A DNA stretch of 64,000 nt. Source: an uncultured Opitutia bacterium (GTDB lineage Bacteria; Verrucomicrobiota; Verrucomicrobiia; Opitutales; Opitutaceae). How positions within the stretch are numbered: the first letter of the stretch is position 1; every line of letters starts with the position of its first letter. The notes beneath the pieces are model-generated. The model had not been told where the DNA came from. It ran no database searches and was given only the letters and a program-made list of their open reading frames with translations. The position numbers and the translations under genes are program-made. Shown one piece after another: positions 42,942 through 48,534 of the stretch. The stretch covers positions 1 through 64,000 of the forward strand of contig CAIRTK010000040.1 in NCBI GenBank assembly GCA_903881475.1. The letters are read 5' to 3'.

Positions 42942-44109
42942 CCTGCAGATCGGCCTCATCGGTTCGGGCGGCCGCGGCGCGCATCTCGGCCGGCTCGCCC
43001 ACCAGCCCGGCCGCGGCGCCCGCGTTGTGGCCTGCTGCGACCTCAGCCCGGTCACCCTCGCGAAAAACCGCGCCGACTACGGCCCGGGGATTTTCACCAC
43101 CACCGACTGCCGCGCACTGCTGGCGTGCGACCTGGACGCGGTGATCATCGCCACGCCGGATTTCCTCCACGAGCAGCAGGCCCTCGCAACCCTGGAACGG
43201 GGCTTTGCGCTCTACCTGGAAAAGCCGATGGCCCTGACCATCGCCGGCTGCGACCGCATCCTGCGCGCCGCCGCCCGGACCCGCGCCCGGCTCTATGTCG
43301 GCCACAACATGCGGCACATGCCGTTTGTGCGGAAGATGAAGTCGCTGATCGACGGCGGCGCAATCGGCGAGGTGAAGGCCTGCTGGGTGCGGCACTTCGT
43401 CGGCCATGGCGGGGATTTCTATTTCCGCGACTGGCATGCCGAGCGCCGGTACACGACCGGCCTGCTCCTGCAGAAGGCCGCGCATGACATCGACATCCTG
43501 CACTGGCTCTGCGGCGGTTACACCCGGCTCGTTAACGCACTTGGCGGTCTCACGCTCTATGGCGATCTTCCCGGGCGCCTGCCCCCGACCAAGGGCCCGC
43601 GCCGCATCCGGCCCGGCGACATGCAGCCCGACCTGTTTCCGCCGACCCGCGCCCGCCGCCTGAACCATCGCATCGACGTCGAGGATCTCAGCACGATGCA
43701 GATGCGGCTGGATAACGGGGTGTTCGCGACGTACGCACAGTGCCACTTCACGCCCGACTACTGGCGCAACTACACCGTCATCGGCACGGCGGGCCGGATT
43801 GAGAATTTCGGCAACGGCGAGCCCGGCACGCACCTGCGCCTCTGGAACCGGCGGGCCGGTTACCACCCAAAGGGCGACGTCACCTATAAAATCCCCGTCA
43901 CCCGCGGCACGCATGGGGGCGCGGATCCGATGATCATGGCGGAATTCCTGCGGTTCGCGCGGGACGGCGGGAAAACCGAGACCTCGGCCCTCGCCGCCCG
44001 CGAAAGCGTGGCCGCGGGCTGCCAGGCCACGGCCTCCCTTCGCCGGCACGGCGTGCCGCTGAAGGTGCCGCCGGTCTCCGCAGCGCTCCGGGACTATTTC
44101 ACGGCTTAG
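42928..44109 (+). CDS. Gfo/Idh/MocA-family oxidoreductase
   Basis: 393 residues. N-terminal Rossmann fold with GLIGSGGRGAHLGRL, and the dinucleotide-domain segment LEKPMALTIAGCDRIL with the conserved EKP. The C-terminal substrate domain follows. These enzymes oxidise or reduce sugars such as inositol or glucose derivatives with NAD(P). It starts inside the 3' end of the esterase gene (14-base overlap) and ends the AraC-esterase-oxidoreductase operon. The substrate is unknown. Confidence 0.92.
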   Translation: MKKPDLQIGLIGSGGRGAHLGRLAHQPGRGARVVACCDLSPVTLAKNRADYGPGIFTTTDCRALLACDLDAVIIATPDFLHEQQALATLERGFALYLEKPMALTIAGCDRILRAAARTRARLYVGHNMRHMPFVRKMKSLIDGGAIGEVKACWVRHFVGHGGDFYFRDWHAERRYTTGLLLQKAAHDIDILHWLCGGYTRLVNALGGLTLYGDLPGRLPPTKGPRRIRPGDMQPDLFPPTRARRLNHRIDVEDLSTMQMRLDNGVFATYAQCHFTPDYWRNYTVIGTAGRIENFGNGEPGTHLRLWNRRAGYHPKGDVTYKIPVTRGTHGGADPMIMAEFLRFARDGGKTETSALAARESVAAGCQATASLRRHGVPLKVPPVSAALRDYFTA

Positions 44110-44172
44110 ACCGCGGTTCTCGGGAAACGGCGGGTGCCGTGGAACGAGGCATGCTTAGGTTTTGATTTCACG

Positions 44173-44267
44173 TTTGTCATTCTGAGCGCAGCGAAGAATC
44201 CAGTAAGAGCCCGCTGCGAACTTCGATTATATCCAACTGGATTCTTCGCTGCGCTCAGAATGACAAA
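44173..44267. repeat. Perfect 32-bp inverted repeat (GTCATTCTGAGCGCAGCGAA type)
   Basis: Arms 44173-44204 and 44236-44267 are exact reverse complements over 32 bases, separated by 31 bases. The core GTCATTCTGAGCGCAGCG is the kind of interspersed repeat seen in many unrelated bacterial genomes. Translated, it yields the artefactual peptides SAAKNP and FFAALRMT on both strands. It lies in the 236-base gap after the Gfo/Idh gene and is more AT-rich than the flanks. Confidence 0.95.
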
Positions 44268-44345
44268 CCCGGGTCGACTGACAGCCAAGGGCTCCCTTCA
44301 AAAAGCCCGGCTCGCCAACCTGCCAAGGGCGCCTAGCGTGGCACC

Positions 44346-45431
44346 ATGTCCGCGGCCGAGACTTCCACTCCTCCCACGACCAAGAAGCCGCCCTTCCCGA
44401 TCAACGCCGGCCTGCGCGGCTACCTCGGCCGCTACAAGCGCGAGCGCGAGCTACCGGTCACCTACGAACGGCTGCGGGATTTCCAGGAGGCCATTCCGCT
44501 GACCGATGAGCGGGGCAAGCCGACGCTCTGGGACAGCGTGATCTACCGGGCGGACGAGATGGCCGACCTCTACGAGGGCCTGAAGCGGATCTACGCGCTG
44601 CTGAAGGTGGATGGTGATTTCTCCGTCGTGGAGCACCTGTATGTGGACCGCGTGGATTTCTGCAGCTTCGGGAACTCGACCCCCTTCCGCATCCGCGTCG
44701 TCAACGCCTATAACGACAACCAGGACTATTTCTACCTCAAGCAGGCCGACGCCTCGCGCGCCTACGGCCTCGAGCTCGAGCACCTACTTTCCCCCAACCG
44801 GCTGAATTTCATCACCCACGGCAGCACGCTCGTGGAGGAACACATCGCCGGGATCCCGGGCGATGTGTTCATCGAGCGCTGGCTGCACGACCGCGAACTC
44901 AGCCCCGTGCGCGTGGCGAAGGAAATGGTGAAATTCAACGAGCGTTCCTTCGTGCGCCTGCTCGGCGACATGCGTTCCTACAACTATGTCGTGGTGGTCA
45001 CGCCCGACTTCGAGGGCGCGCAGGTGCGCATCCGGGCGATGGACTTTGACCAGCAGTCCTACAACGGCCGGAAAAACTTCTACCTGCCGCAGTTCTTCAA
45101 GGAAAACGCCGGGATCGTGCTCTATTGCATGAAGCACCTGCACTCGAAGACCGCGCTCCAGTACCAGCGCGAGGAACAGACGCTGATGCTGCAGCGCGCC
45201 GAGCTCGCCAGCCAGCGGCTCGGCCTGCTGCTCGGAGAAATGGCGCGCGATCCCATCGCCCCGCTGGAGAAGGTGCACGAGCTGCGCGCGGGCCTCGCCG
45301 AGCATTACCAGCGCGACGATTACCTGCGCTGTGAATCCATGGGCGAGCTTGTCCGGGAGAACCTCGAATCAATCCGCCGCGCGATCGGACATCCGGTCCG
45401 GCCGGCAACCATGGGCGAATTTATTTTCTGA
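44346..45431 (+). CDS. Unknown protein with aminoglycoside-phosphotransferase/kinase-like motifs
   Basis: 361 residues, no family name recognised. Visible hallmarks suggest a protein-kinase-like fold: FYLKQAD with Lys132, a helix with Glu143/145 (GLELEHLL), a hinge-like TLVEEHIAGIPGD, a catalytic-loop-like GDMRSYNYVV (Asp208, Asn213: the D to N spacing of five seen in APH enzymes), and MDFDQQ (Asp233/235), like the metal-binding DFD. This is an inference from spacing, not from similarity. The C-terminal ~100 residues are helical. The small lysine-rich gene at 45586 follows. Confidence 0.75.
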   Translation: MSAAETSTPPTTKKPPFPINAGLRGYLGRYKRERELPVTYERLRDFQEAIPLTDERGKPTLWDSVIYRADEMADLYEGLKRIYALLKVDGDFSVVEHLYVDRVDFCSFGNSTPFRIRVVNAYNDNQDYFYLKQADASRAYGLELEHLLSPNRLNFITHGSTLVEEHIAGIPGDVFIERWLHDRELSPVRVAKEMVKFNERSFVRLLGDMRSYNYVVVVTPDFEGAQVRIRAMDFDQQSYNGRKNFYLPQFFKENAGIVLYCMKHLHSKTALQYQREEQTLMLQRAELASQRLGLLLGEMARDPIAPLEKVHELRAGLAEHYQRDDYLRCESMGELVRENLESIRRAIGHPVRPATMGEFIF

Positions 45432-45585
45432 TCCGCGCCCGCCTCGCGGTTCGCCGGAATTTTTTCGCCGCGCATTTGTATTGCGCCACTGCGCTGCGGA
45501 CGTGAACTTCACACTAGCCCGTGCGCGCATCACCGATCCTGTGATGATGCGGCCGGGCACTAACCCACAAAAGGAAACCAAGATC

Positions 45586-45636
45586 ATGGCTAAAAAAGCT
45601 CCCAAGAAGAAAGTGGCGAAGAAAAAGAAGAAGTAA
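45586..45636 (+). CDS. 16-residue lysine-rich micro-protein
   Basis: A 17-codon reading frame encoding MAKKAPKKKVAKKKKK (10 of 16 residues are Lys). It is preceded at good distance by a strong ribosome binding site, AAAGGAAACC, and followed 24 bases after its stop by an intrinsic terminator. A histone-H1-tail-like basic peptide could bind nucleic acids or ribosomes; the function is unknown. Longer in-frame starts around 45541-45547 lack a ribosome binding site. Its bracketing by RBS and terminator supports expression. Confidence 0.6.
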   Translation: MAKKAPKKKVAKKKKK

Positions 45637-45649
45637 GCTTCTTCCCGCC

Positions 45650-45690
45650 AAAAAAACATGAGCCGCTCCTTTTGGGGCGGCTCTTTTTTT
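45650..45690. terminator. Bidirectional intrinsic terminator
   Basis: Stem GAGCCGC...GCGGCTC (45660-45683) followed by TTTTTTT on the plus strand and preceded by AAAAAAA (45650-45656), which is a T-run on the minus strand. It can terminate both the lysine-rich micro-gene (plus) and the DUF5069 gene (minus, stop at 45707). Confidence 0.88.
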
Positions 45691-45706
45691 GGGGGGTCCT
45701 CCCGCC

Positions 45707-46177
45707 TCACTCGATTCGGCCCTCGTCGAAATCGATCAGGTCCGGCACGGTGCGGATCTGGTCCACGCGATCCGCGCAGCCCATGGCGGTAAGCGCCTCC
45801 TTCAGGAATTCCTGGCCGGCCGCGGTGAGCCCTTTCTGCACCAGGTCGCGGTTCCATTTGGCCGCGCGCACGTCCGGCGGAAGCAGGCCGCGCAACCCCT
45901 CCTCCACTTGCGCGTCGTCCGCCGACTCGAAGACGATTTTTTCCACGGCCGCCGGATCAATCCCGAGATGCAGGCAGAGAAAGCGGTCGAGCCCGCGCTT
46001 GTAGTTCTTGGCGTAGCTCGCCGGCAGCGCACCGTGCGCCTTGACGTAGCGGCACTTCGCCAGGAACCGCGGCAGGTAGAGCAAGCCCGTCGCCGCATGC
46101 GGCACGTAGGGCGACGGCAGGCAGGTCAGAATTTCACCCGTCGAGCCGGGAATGGGCTTGGAAAGCATCGCCGTCAT
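45707..46177 (-). CDS. DUF5069-family protein
   Basis: About 156 residues, second DUF5069 protein of the window (other copy 23311-23763). The N-terminal LPSPYVPHAATGLLYLPRFLAKCRY and the C-terminal DLIDFDEGRIE match the family; it lacks the KGFDGRCC block of the other copy and has KRGLDRFLCLHLGI in its place. Starts at 46177 or 46168 are both possible. It is downstream of methylglyoxal synthase with a GTAG-repeat between, and ends before a shared bidirectional terminator. Function unknown. Confidence 0.82.
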   Translation of the reverse strand: MTAMLSKPIPGSTGEILTCLPSPYVPHAATGLLYLPRFLAKCRYVKAHGALPASYAKNYKRGLDRFLCLHLGIDPAAVEKIVFESADDAQVEEGLRGLLPPDVRAAKWNRDLVQKGLTAAGQEFLKEALTAMGCADRVDQIRTVPDLIDFDEGRIE

Positions 46178-46233
46178 GCAACGCAACGGACCCGGCAAGG
46201 CAACTCCGGGCCGCGGGGTCATGGGCCCCAATG

Positions 46234-46259
46234 TGGGGCGGGTGCCCTCACCCGCCTAC
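46234..46259 (-). repeat. GTAG-headed hairpin (REP-like)
   Basis: On the minus strand GTAG (46259-46256) leads into a hairpin with arms GGCGGGTG and CACCCGCC (46237-46256) and a four-base loop. It lies between methylglyoxal synthase and the DUF5069 gene. Consistent with the GTAG-plus-palindrome pattern of other repeats in the window. Confidence 0.6.
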
Positions 46260-46307
46260 ATCCGACCAAAGCCACGGTAAAACCGAGTCCCTGGCCATCA
46301 CCTCCGG

Positions 46308-46826
46308 CTACGCCGCGGTTTTCTTGGTCTCCGGCAGATCCGCGACCTCTGGCTTCGCCGGTTCGCTCGGCGGGATCACCCGCGACCGGTACACGTCGTA
46401 GTCCGGCACCAGCCGCTGGTAGCGCTTGTCCATCAGCGGCGAGGAAATCATGAAGTCGGCCGAGGCCCGGTCGCAGGCGATCGGGATGTTCCAGACCACG
46501 GCCATGCGCAGCAGCGCCTTCACGTCGGGGTCATGCGGCTGCGGCTCCAGCGGATCCCAGAAGAAGATCAGGAAATCGATGTCCCCATCCACGATCTTCG
46601 CGCCAATCTGCTGGTCGCCGCCGAGCGGACCGCTCTGCAGTTTGGTAATGGGGAAGCCCAGTTCCTCCTCCAGCATCAGGCCGGTAGTGCCGGTGGCGTA
46701 CACCTTGTGGTGGGCGAGCAGGTCGCGGTTGAACTTCGCCCATTCGATCAGGTCCCGCTTCTTGTTGTCGTGCGCCACGAGCGCGATCTTCTTGTCCGGC
46801 TCCATCACGATTTTCTTGTAGTGCAT
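46308..46826 (-). CDS. mgsA: Methylglyoxal synthase
   Basis: A 172-residue enzyme converting dihydroxyacetone phosphate to methylglyoxal, a bypass of lower glycolysis under phosphate limitation. [20 protein letters not shown], the phosphate-binding [24 protein letters not shown] and [19 protein letters not shown] with the catalytic Asp region are all present. The C-terminal ~20 residues are a low-complexity tail beyond the normal length. Start could be 46826 or the Met eight codons later. Confidence 0.95.
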
Positions 46827-46936
46827 GGTTCGGATCGTAGCAGATCGCGTTCCGGATAAGCGATCCGTTTACCGTGACAACCGCGTGCCGGGCCGGCACC
46901 AAGCCAAACTCATGCTGATGAAGTACCTCCCGGTGT

Positions 46937-47036
46937 GTAGCAGCGCAGCCCATGACGGCCAGGCCTGTGGCAGCCGACGTGAGGAGGCCGGGTTCGCGGC
47001 CAATATCCAAATCAGCCTCGTGACCTCGGCCGCTAC
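46937..47036. repeat. GTAG-class inverted repeat, family shared with 58046-58115
   Basis: On the minus strand the element opens with GTAGCGGCCGAGGTCACGAG (47036 down), homologous to GTAGCAGCCGACGTGAGGAG at 58046. Its other arm (46967-46990, GTGGCAGCCGACGTGAGGAG on plus) closes the imperfect inverted repeat. A further GTAGCAGCGCAGCCC at 46937 may be a degenerate extra copy. It fills the gap between mgsA and gltD. Confidence 0.85.
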
Positions 47037-47052
47037 CAATCCGCGTCCTGGC

Positions 47053-48534
47053 TTACGGCAGATCGGTTGAGCCCATCAGGTAGCGGTCGCACTCGCGCGC
47101 GGCGGCGCGACCCTCGTTGATCGCCCAGACGACCAAACTTTGCCCGCGGCGGCAGTCGCCGGCCGCGAACACGCCCGGGATGCTGGTGCCAAACTTGCCG
47201 TAGTCCGCCTTGATATTGCTGCGTGGATCGGTCTCGACGCCGATCTCCTTGAGCAGCGCCTGTTCGGGCCCGAGGAAACCCATCGCGAGGAGCACGAGTT
47301 GCGCGGGTCGGGTCTTTTCCGTGCCAGGCTGCTCCTTCGGGACGAACTGGCCCTTGTCGTTCTTCTCCCACTTGATCTCGACGGTCACGAGTTCCTTCAC
47401 GTGGCCCTGCTCGTCCCCGATGAACTTCTTCACCGTCGTGACGTAGATGCGCGGGTCCGCGCCGAACTTTGCCGCGGCCTCCTCTTGGCCGTAATCCATC
47501 TTATAGACCTTCGGCCACTCGGGCCAGGGGTTGTCCGGCGTGCGCTCCAGCGGGGGCTTCGGCAGAATCTCGATCTGGAGCAGGCTCTTGCAGCCATGCC
47601 GCATCGACGTGCCGACGCAGTCCGTGCCGGTGTCGCCGCCGCCGATGACGACCACATCCTTGCCGCCGCCATGGATCGGGCTCGCGCCGTTGTTGCCCAG
47701 GACGGCCTTGGTGTTGGCGGTGAGAAACTCCATCGCGAAGTGCACGCCCTTCAGCGCGCGGCCCTCGATCGGCAGGTCGCGCGGCTGCGTGGCGCCGGTG
47801 CAGATGACCGTGGCGTCGTACTCCTTCAGGAAGATCTGGGGCTCGACGTTGTCCCCGACGTTGGCGTTGCAGATGAACTTGATGCCTTCCTGCTCCATGA
47901 GCTTGATGCGGCGCAGGACGACCTCCTGCTTGTCGAGCTTCATGTTCGGGATGCCGTACATCAGCAGGCCGCCCGGGCGGTCGGCGCGCTCGAAGACGGT
48001 GACGGTGTGGCCGGCGAGGTTGAGCTGCGCCGCGGCGGACAGGCCGGAGGGGCCGGAGCCGATGATGGCGACCTTCTTGCCGGTGCGGACCTTGGGCGCG
48101 GCAGGCAGCACCCAGCCTTCGTCCCAGCCGCGGTCGGTGATCGCCGCCTCGATGTTCTTGATCGTGACGGGCGGATTATTGATGCCGAGGACGCACGAGC
48201 CCTCGCACGGCGCGGGACAAACGCGGCCGGTGAACTCCGGGAAGTTGTTCGTCTTGTGCAGGCGGGCGAGCGCCTCCTTCCACAGGCCGCGGTAAACCAG
48301 GTCGTTCCACTCGGGGATGAGGTTGTTGATCGGACAACCCGAGGCCATGCCGCTAATCAGCTTGCCCGTGTGGCAGAACGGCACGCCGCAATCCATGCAG
48401 CGCGCGCCCTGGTTGCGGAGCTTCTTCGTCTCCATGTGGTGATGGAATTCCTTCCAGTCACGCACGCGCTCCGCCGGCGGACGGTCGACCGGCAGTTCGC
48501 GCAGATATTCAATGAATCCAGTTGGCTTGCCCAT
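47053..48534 (-). CDS. gltD: Glutamate synthase (NADPH), small subunit
   Basis: A 493-residue flavoprotein that passes NADPH electrons to the large subunit for glutamate synthesis. N-terminal cysteines for two 4Fe-4S clusters ([30 protein letters not shown]), the FAD motif [10 protein letters not shown] and the NADPH motif GGGDTGTDC are present. The length is normal. gltB lies upstream on the same strand; the 122-base gap between them holds an inverted repeat. Confidence 0.96.

Follow-up and report, generated by a model that had tools for sequence, protein, structure and literature searches.

The bacterium studied here shares the PVC superphylum with the Chlamydiae. According to PMC2848022, Hc2 measures 165-237 aa in C. 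trachomatis and combines larger repeat elements with conserved flanking regions, BpH1 of B. pertussis is 182-206 aa long, and bpH1 knock-outs show wild-type growth. PMC9239181 describes in vitro DNA binding by KPAA-repeat peptides and an association of AlgP with polyphosphate granules and of PhaF with PHA granules. The locus examined here lies within a 64,000-nucleotide stretch of Opitutaceae (Verrucomicrobiota) DNA (the window) and carries a lysine-rich ORF of 16 codons that, judged by sequence evidence, is a real conserved gene.

A single lysine-rich ORF between two syntenic neighbours

Throughout the window (64 kb, 66% G+C), only one ATG-initiated ORF of at least 12 residues consists of at least 50% lysine, namely the 16-codon ORF of Table 1, in which 10 of the 16 residues are lysine. 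No ORF of this kind appeared in any of 60 dinucleotide-shuffled windows. Its occurrence is far above chance and a chance reading of the ORF is disfavoured, which confirms the 16-residue lysine-rich ORF with ribosome binding site, ATG and TAA reported in a preliminary description of this DNA. The same frame is open upstream of the ATG in the window, as a GTG-initiated ORF of 101 aa from 45331; in several relatives an upstream stop lies shortly before the ATG (7-12 codons away in L033, L034, L039 and L040), so the ATG with its Shine-Dalgarno site is the conserved start. The gene is probably unannotated because of its small size.

Table 1. Features of the lysine-rich locus in window coordinates, followed by similar ORFs of genus g58 in the coordinates of their own loci
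Feature	Position	Strand	Remarks
Uncharacterised conserved 361-aa gene	44346..45431	+	directly upstream; synteny anchor; matches in family genomes
Conserved upstream box CATTTGTATTGCGC	45473..45486	+	alike in all orthologs shown; putative -35 in its final six bases (45481-45486)
Putative -10, GAACTT	45504..45509	+	exactly 17 nt after TTGCGC; tentative assignment
Leader hairpin	45517..45558	+	near 5' end of presumed transcript; leader fold -25.8 kcal/mol, z -2.9
Shine-Dalgarno AAAGGAAA	45570..45577	+	read in the sequence; GGA common to orthologs
Lysine-rich 16-codon gene	45586..45636	+	MAKKAPKKKVAKKKKK; ATG 45586, stop TAA 45634-45636
Intrinsic terminator	45660..45690	+	stem GAGCCGCTCC-TTTT-GGGGCGGCTC 45660-45683; T7 45684-45690
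DUF5069 gene	45707..46180	-	convergent neighbour, synteny marker; Pfam PF16798, 52 bits vs cut-off 27
g58 Lys-rich ORF, locus L240	1277	-	strong SD; beside methylglyoxal synthase
g58 Lys-rich ORF, locus L244	2124	+	strong SD; beside methylglyoxal synthase
g58 Lys-rich ORF, locus L238	80	-	strong SD; beside methylglyoxal synthase

The protein encoded by the upstream neighbour has counterparts at E<=1e-20 in 136 out of 150 genomes of the family and no match in NCBIfam (E<=0.01), Pfam (E<=0.1) or the PDB (E<=0.1); at these thresholds it is a conserved family without a name in the three resources, and its gene is not considered to contribute to the function of the lysine-rich gene. Two overlapping opposite-strand ORFs at 44106-44502 both contain FVILSAAKNP and TGFFAALRMTN, and these shared stretches suggest an inverted-repeat element that would lie upstream of the 361-aa gene and reach into its start.

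Orthologs and their distribution

In a DNA search of 57 related genomes, seven of the 11 other genus members showed clear matches spanning most of the query, and an eighth same-genus carrier (G007) has a 20-aa version at the same position. Across the 12 genomes of the genus, the gene is present in nine and absent between its neighbours in two (G009 and G010), and in G005 the contig ends inside the neighbouring gene. A search anchored on the 361-aa gene matched 131 named loci, of which the best 80 were analysed. The best 80 carry Verrucomicrobia titles, mostly Opitutaceae or Opitutae/Opitutia and including Cephaloticoccus, Lacunisphaera and Opitutus, and 21 of them have a lysine-rich ORF directly after the 361-aa gene. 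A script recognised DUF5069 through a short opposite-strand motif in 39 of the best 80 loci; with both neighbours thus recognised, the ORF was present 20 times and absent 19 times, the neighbours of the ORF-less loci nearly abutting in 5 cases (gaps 2-16 bp) and standing 336-2500 bp apart in 14. The other 41 loci, with DUF5069 unrecognised or a contig end, contributed one further ORF, L183, which is cut by the contig end. Since both neighbours occur without the ORF in those 19 loci the gene is dispensable, and it marks particular clades of the family without being universal there.

The ortholog set analysed below (n=24) comprises the 21 anchor-locus ORFs, the window, G011 and G162. The 361-aa gene lies 5' of the ORF in 23 of the 24, the exception being G011, in whose fetched flank it was not seen; a search of the G011 genome gave no match to the 361-aa gene, and DUF5069 is kept in its flank. 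A convergent DUF5069 lies 3' of the ORF in 23 of the 24, the exception being L183, where the contig ends. Every ortholog begins with MAKK, and all end in two basic residues apart from the one cut by a contig end (23/24). Their lengths are 15 aa (n=5), 16 (n=3), 17, 19, 20 (n=4), 21 (n=2), 26, 31, 32 (n=2), 34, 89, >101 and 113 aa, the value for L183 (>101 aa) being a lower bound owing to the contig end, so that 21 of 24 orthologs measure 15-34 aa. A protein search of the 57 relatives with the 89-aa ortholog matched 2 of the 57, missed known short orthologs and was set aside as uninformative.

Similar ORFs were also seen elsewhere. In genus g58 an ORF of 19-24 aa adjoins methylglyoxal synthase in three of the five genomes for which that locus was fetched (Table 1), by either relocation or independent origin, and two of these genes have, read by eye, TTTACA-N17-GATGAT and TTTACA-N17-GACAAT upstream. 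Short lysine-rich ORFs occur at other places in other genera of the family as well (L013, 16 aa; L017, 35 aa; L021, 25 aa; L011, 30 aa), some with a terminator-like hairpin soon 3'.

Purifying selection on the reading frame

The preliminary description had named the synonymous-to-nonsynonymous pattern as a check of the gene, and the pattern is that of a coding sequence. Over codons 2-9 of 21 distinct blocks, pS was 0.754 versus a pN of 0.0995 in the ORF frame, whereas pN exceeded pS in frames +1, +2 and antisense over the same blocks. Mean entropy at the first, second and third codon positions of this stretch was 0.22, 0.31 and 1.08 bits. Third positions held 808 of 1161 pairwise differences, a share equalled in none of 20000 column permutations; the pairwise comparisons are non-independent because the sequences are related, and the contrast between frames is unaffected by kinship. 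Length differences among the orthologs also stay in frame. Taken together, the alignments indicate that purifying selection acts in the ORF frame only, and the locus thus has what identifies a small-protein gene: a conserved frame under purifying selection with a Shine-Dalgarno site and a stop.

A promoter-like pair and a leader hairpin

Boxes like CATTTGTRTTGCGC stand upstream of the orthologs as part of a pair, TTGC(G/T)C-N17-G(A/C), whose 17-nt spacing is the same in 24 of 24 orthologs, with GA everywhere except for GC in one; TTGC(G/T)C itself lies between 103 and 120 nt ahead of the ATG, depending on the ortholog. The TTGCGC-N17-GA pair was recognised only through ortholog comparison, and a generic sigma-70 scan of 43000-48000 reported no promoter. 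We infer that the conserved pair is a dedicated promoter with unusual hexamers. The sequence TTGCGC-N17-GANNTT at 45473-45509 (+) carries a conserved CATTTGTR extension, and the pair extended in this way may hint at lineage promoter preferences or at an operator.

Among 150 family genomes there are 11 exact box-N17-GA matches, all of them 5' of the lysine-rich gene. When one mismatch was allowed, the pair was found in 23 of the 150 genomes, in 16 before the lysine-rich gene and in 7 elsewhere, with 8 genomes for the backward control. The matches elsewhere are thus at about the level of the control, and they lend no support to the box as a promoter of general use or a regulon; a scan for K-rich ORFs at the 7 off-locus matches listed none. 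Within the genome of the window, allowing up to two mismatches gave 4 occurrences of the box versus 11 for the backward control.

From this putative promoter, transcription would start near 45515, and the presumed unit of ∼175 nt would both open and close with a hairpin. The preliminary description had the unit running from 45586 to 45690; it placed the ORF and the terminator correctly, but the unit begins further upstream, with the box from 45473 and the leader hairpin at 45517-45558. The leaders of the other orthologs likewise form a stem in single-sequence folds, with z from -1.0 to -5.2 versus mononucleotide shuffles, the folded stretch being too long in two rows. In a group of 12 relative sequences, the 5' helix is paired in 97.9% of cells, with two cells of double change. 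Its covariation is modest, since one of 12 pairs is changed on both sides and 235 of 500 shuffles reach that; for paired cells and the covariation score, though, as few as 5 of 500 shuffles do as well. A consensus fold for the genus of the window did not recover the 5' helix and gave a different, weak structure, and in that genus the hairpin is therefore supported by single-sequence folds.

A conserved terminator

The terminator stem has 10 bp and a fold of -21.9 kcal/mol (z -4.1 vs shuffles), and an A7 tract stands 3 nt 5' of it at 45650-45656, so that the strong hairpin with T7 and A7 described earlier is indeed present. In an alignment of 22 of the 24 orthologs, without L183 and G011, the stem is paired in 99.5% of cells, and three pairs are changed on both sides, which none of 500 shuffles reaches. 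With this stem and with a GGA within the last 20 nt 5' of the ATG in 24 of 24 orthologs, the ORF, its ribosome binding site and its terminator are conserved in relatives, as the preliminary description had proposed to check. Its further claim that the terminator is bidirectional is reasonable because the stem lies between the gene's stop and the convergent DUF5069 stop (45707) with the A7 before it, and the terminator could also serve the DUF5069 gene; the A7, however, is not kept in most relatives, in which the T-rich tract of the + side is mostly kept.

A presumed unit of this size with a hairpin at both ends, whose 5' helix is kept in the 12 relatives, is what might be expected if the transcript were a regulatory sRNA with an incidental ORF, an alternative raised at the outset. 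A 5' hairpin is indeed part of the presumed transcript. Yet variation at third positions and in-frame length changes disfavour this reading, as does the pN/pS contrast, and the ORF reaches 113 codons with similar composition. Rfam gave no match in the window at gathering score, and the 9 sRNA or leader matches of a relaxed scan of 301 bases were all below gathering score and all over the terminator stem. We therefore hold an sRNA with an incidental ORF to be very improbable.

A terminator that comes after consecutive Lys codons also recalls an attenuator, in which the ORF would be a lysine-sensing leader peptide and ribosome stalling on its Lys codons would decide whether the terminator forms. 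An attenuator would act on a downstream gene of the same strand, but what follows the lysine-rich gene on the 3' side (DUF5069, methylglyoxal synthase and two long ORFs, up to 53354) lies on the - strand. DUF5069 is moreover convergent in all orthologs but L183, which is cut by its contig end, and the peptide can be as long as 113 aa. Because the downstream genes lie on the opposite strand attenuation is very unlikely, and we give it next to no credence.

Composition, histone H1-like families and length evolution

Over the 24 orthologs the composition is K 50%, A 31%, P 7%, V 5% and T 3%, which by its proportions resembles that of a histone H1 C-terminal tail. The 113-aa ortholog of Cephaloticoccus primus scores 53.1 bits against Pfam HC2 (PF07382; gathering cut-off 40), a match of low-complexity sequence. 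It is the only one of five orthologs scored that lies above the cut-off, three others giving 21.3, 14.9 and 14.0 bits and one no match, and this long syntenic ortholog lends support to the earlier suggestion of a histone-tail mimic. The window's own 16-mer is below the tool's 20-residue minimum for HC2 scoring and likewise too short for NCBIfam, in which the best scores among the five orthologs were 37.3 bits for NF038052 and 36.4 bits for NF038053, below the cut-offs of 135 and 80. The orthologs fall short of the HC2-like length of ∼150-240 aa with conserved flanks (range from PMC2848022): 21 of 24 measure 15-34 aa, and the other three 89 aa, 113 aa and, where the contig end cuts the ORF, >101 aa. 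The genome of the window itself gave neither an HC2 nor an Hc1 match at E<=0.01. At the same threshold 12 of 57 relatives match HC2, and 4 are above the cut-off; two of 14 control genomes also match, below the cut-off, which indicates that such composition scores easily.

A 35-row tree of the 361-aa neighbour, with several weakly supported forks, nests the 89- and 113-aa forms among forms of 19-34 aa and has L183 (>101 aa) as a long basal branch of the same eight-member clade. The remaining clades with the gene have 15-21 aa, and the window's clade shows two separate absences. Since the long forms are nested among short ones and the other clades are short, the short form looks ancestral and the long form derived, which suggests, without proving it, that the short forms came first. 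The opposite course, in which the ORF would be the decayed remnant of a full-size Hc2-like gene, could draw on the existence of long syntenic orthologs (89, 113 and >101 aa) and on the basal position of L183. Against it, the nesting makes a gain in length likelier, the weak forks notwithstanding, and the short forms retain start, stop, Shine-Dalgarno site, promoter box and terminator under selection. A remnant is accordingly improbable in our judgement.

A proposed role in binding polyanions

The locus is probably best explained as a genuine small-protein gene whose product would be a stand-alone H1-tail-like polycation, most likely DNA-binding. We infer that the gene would be expressed from its own promoter, with a good Shine-Dalgarno site and its own terminator, and that the 5' stem-loop may protect or stabilise the mRNA. 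The product would be a disordered 16-residue polycation with 10 lysines and a charge of about +10, predicted to bind polyanions without sequence specificity and to neutralise and bridge nucleic acid. Its most likely partner would be chromosomal DNA, which it would neutralise in charge and compact locally, and polyphosphate or RNA may be further partners. A 16-mer is expected to bind DNA more weakly than a 100-mer.

The same small protein could instead act on RNA, the ribosome or polyphosphate and not on the chromosome, as a basic peptide associated with ribosomes or a factor of polyphosphate granules. These polyanions are indistinguishable from composition alone, the H1-like AlgP associates with polyphosphate granules (PMC9239181), and with a structured leader the peptide might conceivably regulate itself through its own RNA. 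On the other side, a variation from 15 to 113 aa among relatives would be unusual for a ribosomal protein, and only Lys and Ala are conserved, with nothing that points to a defined pocket. We regard such a target as possible but unlikely.

Returning to the DNA-binding polycation, we propose more tentatively, and with some doubt, that the free-standing H1-tail peptide of 15-16 residues is a protamine-like nucleoid factor in Opitutaceae, and that the locus forms a length series in which each lineage tunes its tail, with a several-fold expansion in that of Cephaloticoccus. The locus illustrates that a gene far under the usual length cut-offs of gene finders can be conserved and selected and come with control elements of its own. 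The locus amounts to a natural experiment as well, with tails of 15 to 113 residues at one syntenic locus behind one type of promoter-like box, and through this series the length that an H1-like tail needs for organising a bacterial chromosome (or polyphosphate) becomes directly testable.

Comparison with known systems

A search of the open-licence literature found nothing like a stand-alone H1-tail-like gene of 15-34 residues, no paper pairing Opitutaceae with 'histone H1-like' or Cephaloticoccus with histone, and none with any of four peptide strings. To our knowledge, no smaller stand-alone H1-tail-like gene has been described. The Chlamydia histone H1-like nucleoprotein Hc2/HctB (PF07382) is also Lys/Ala-rich, of low complexity and variable in length, but the gene in the window encodes 16 aa. 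BpH1 of Bordetella and the H1-like proteins of Burkholderia (NF038053) are likewise stand-alone, Lys-rich and variable in size, although the five orthologs scored against this family stay at or below 36.4 bits (cut-off 80); the dispensability of BpH1 (PMC2848022) fits the natural absences of the lysine-rich gene. The KPAA-repeat tails of AlgP and PhaF of Pseudomonas are K/P/A-rich too and are thought to bind DNA (PMC9239181), but there the tail sits on a larger protein with an N-terminal domain, whereas in the lysine-rich gene the tail is the whole protein. The kind of protein is thus already known from Hc2, BpH1 and AlgP, and what is new is its stand-alone form of 15-34 residues.
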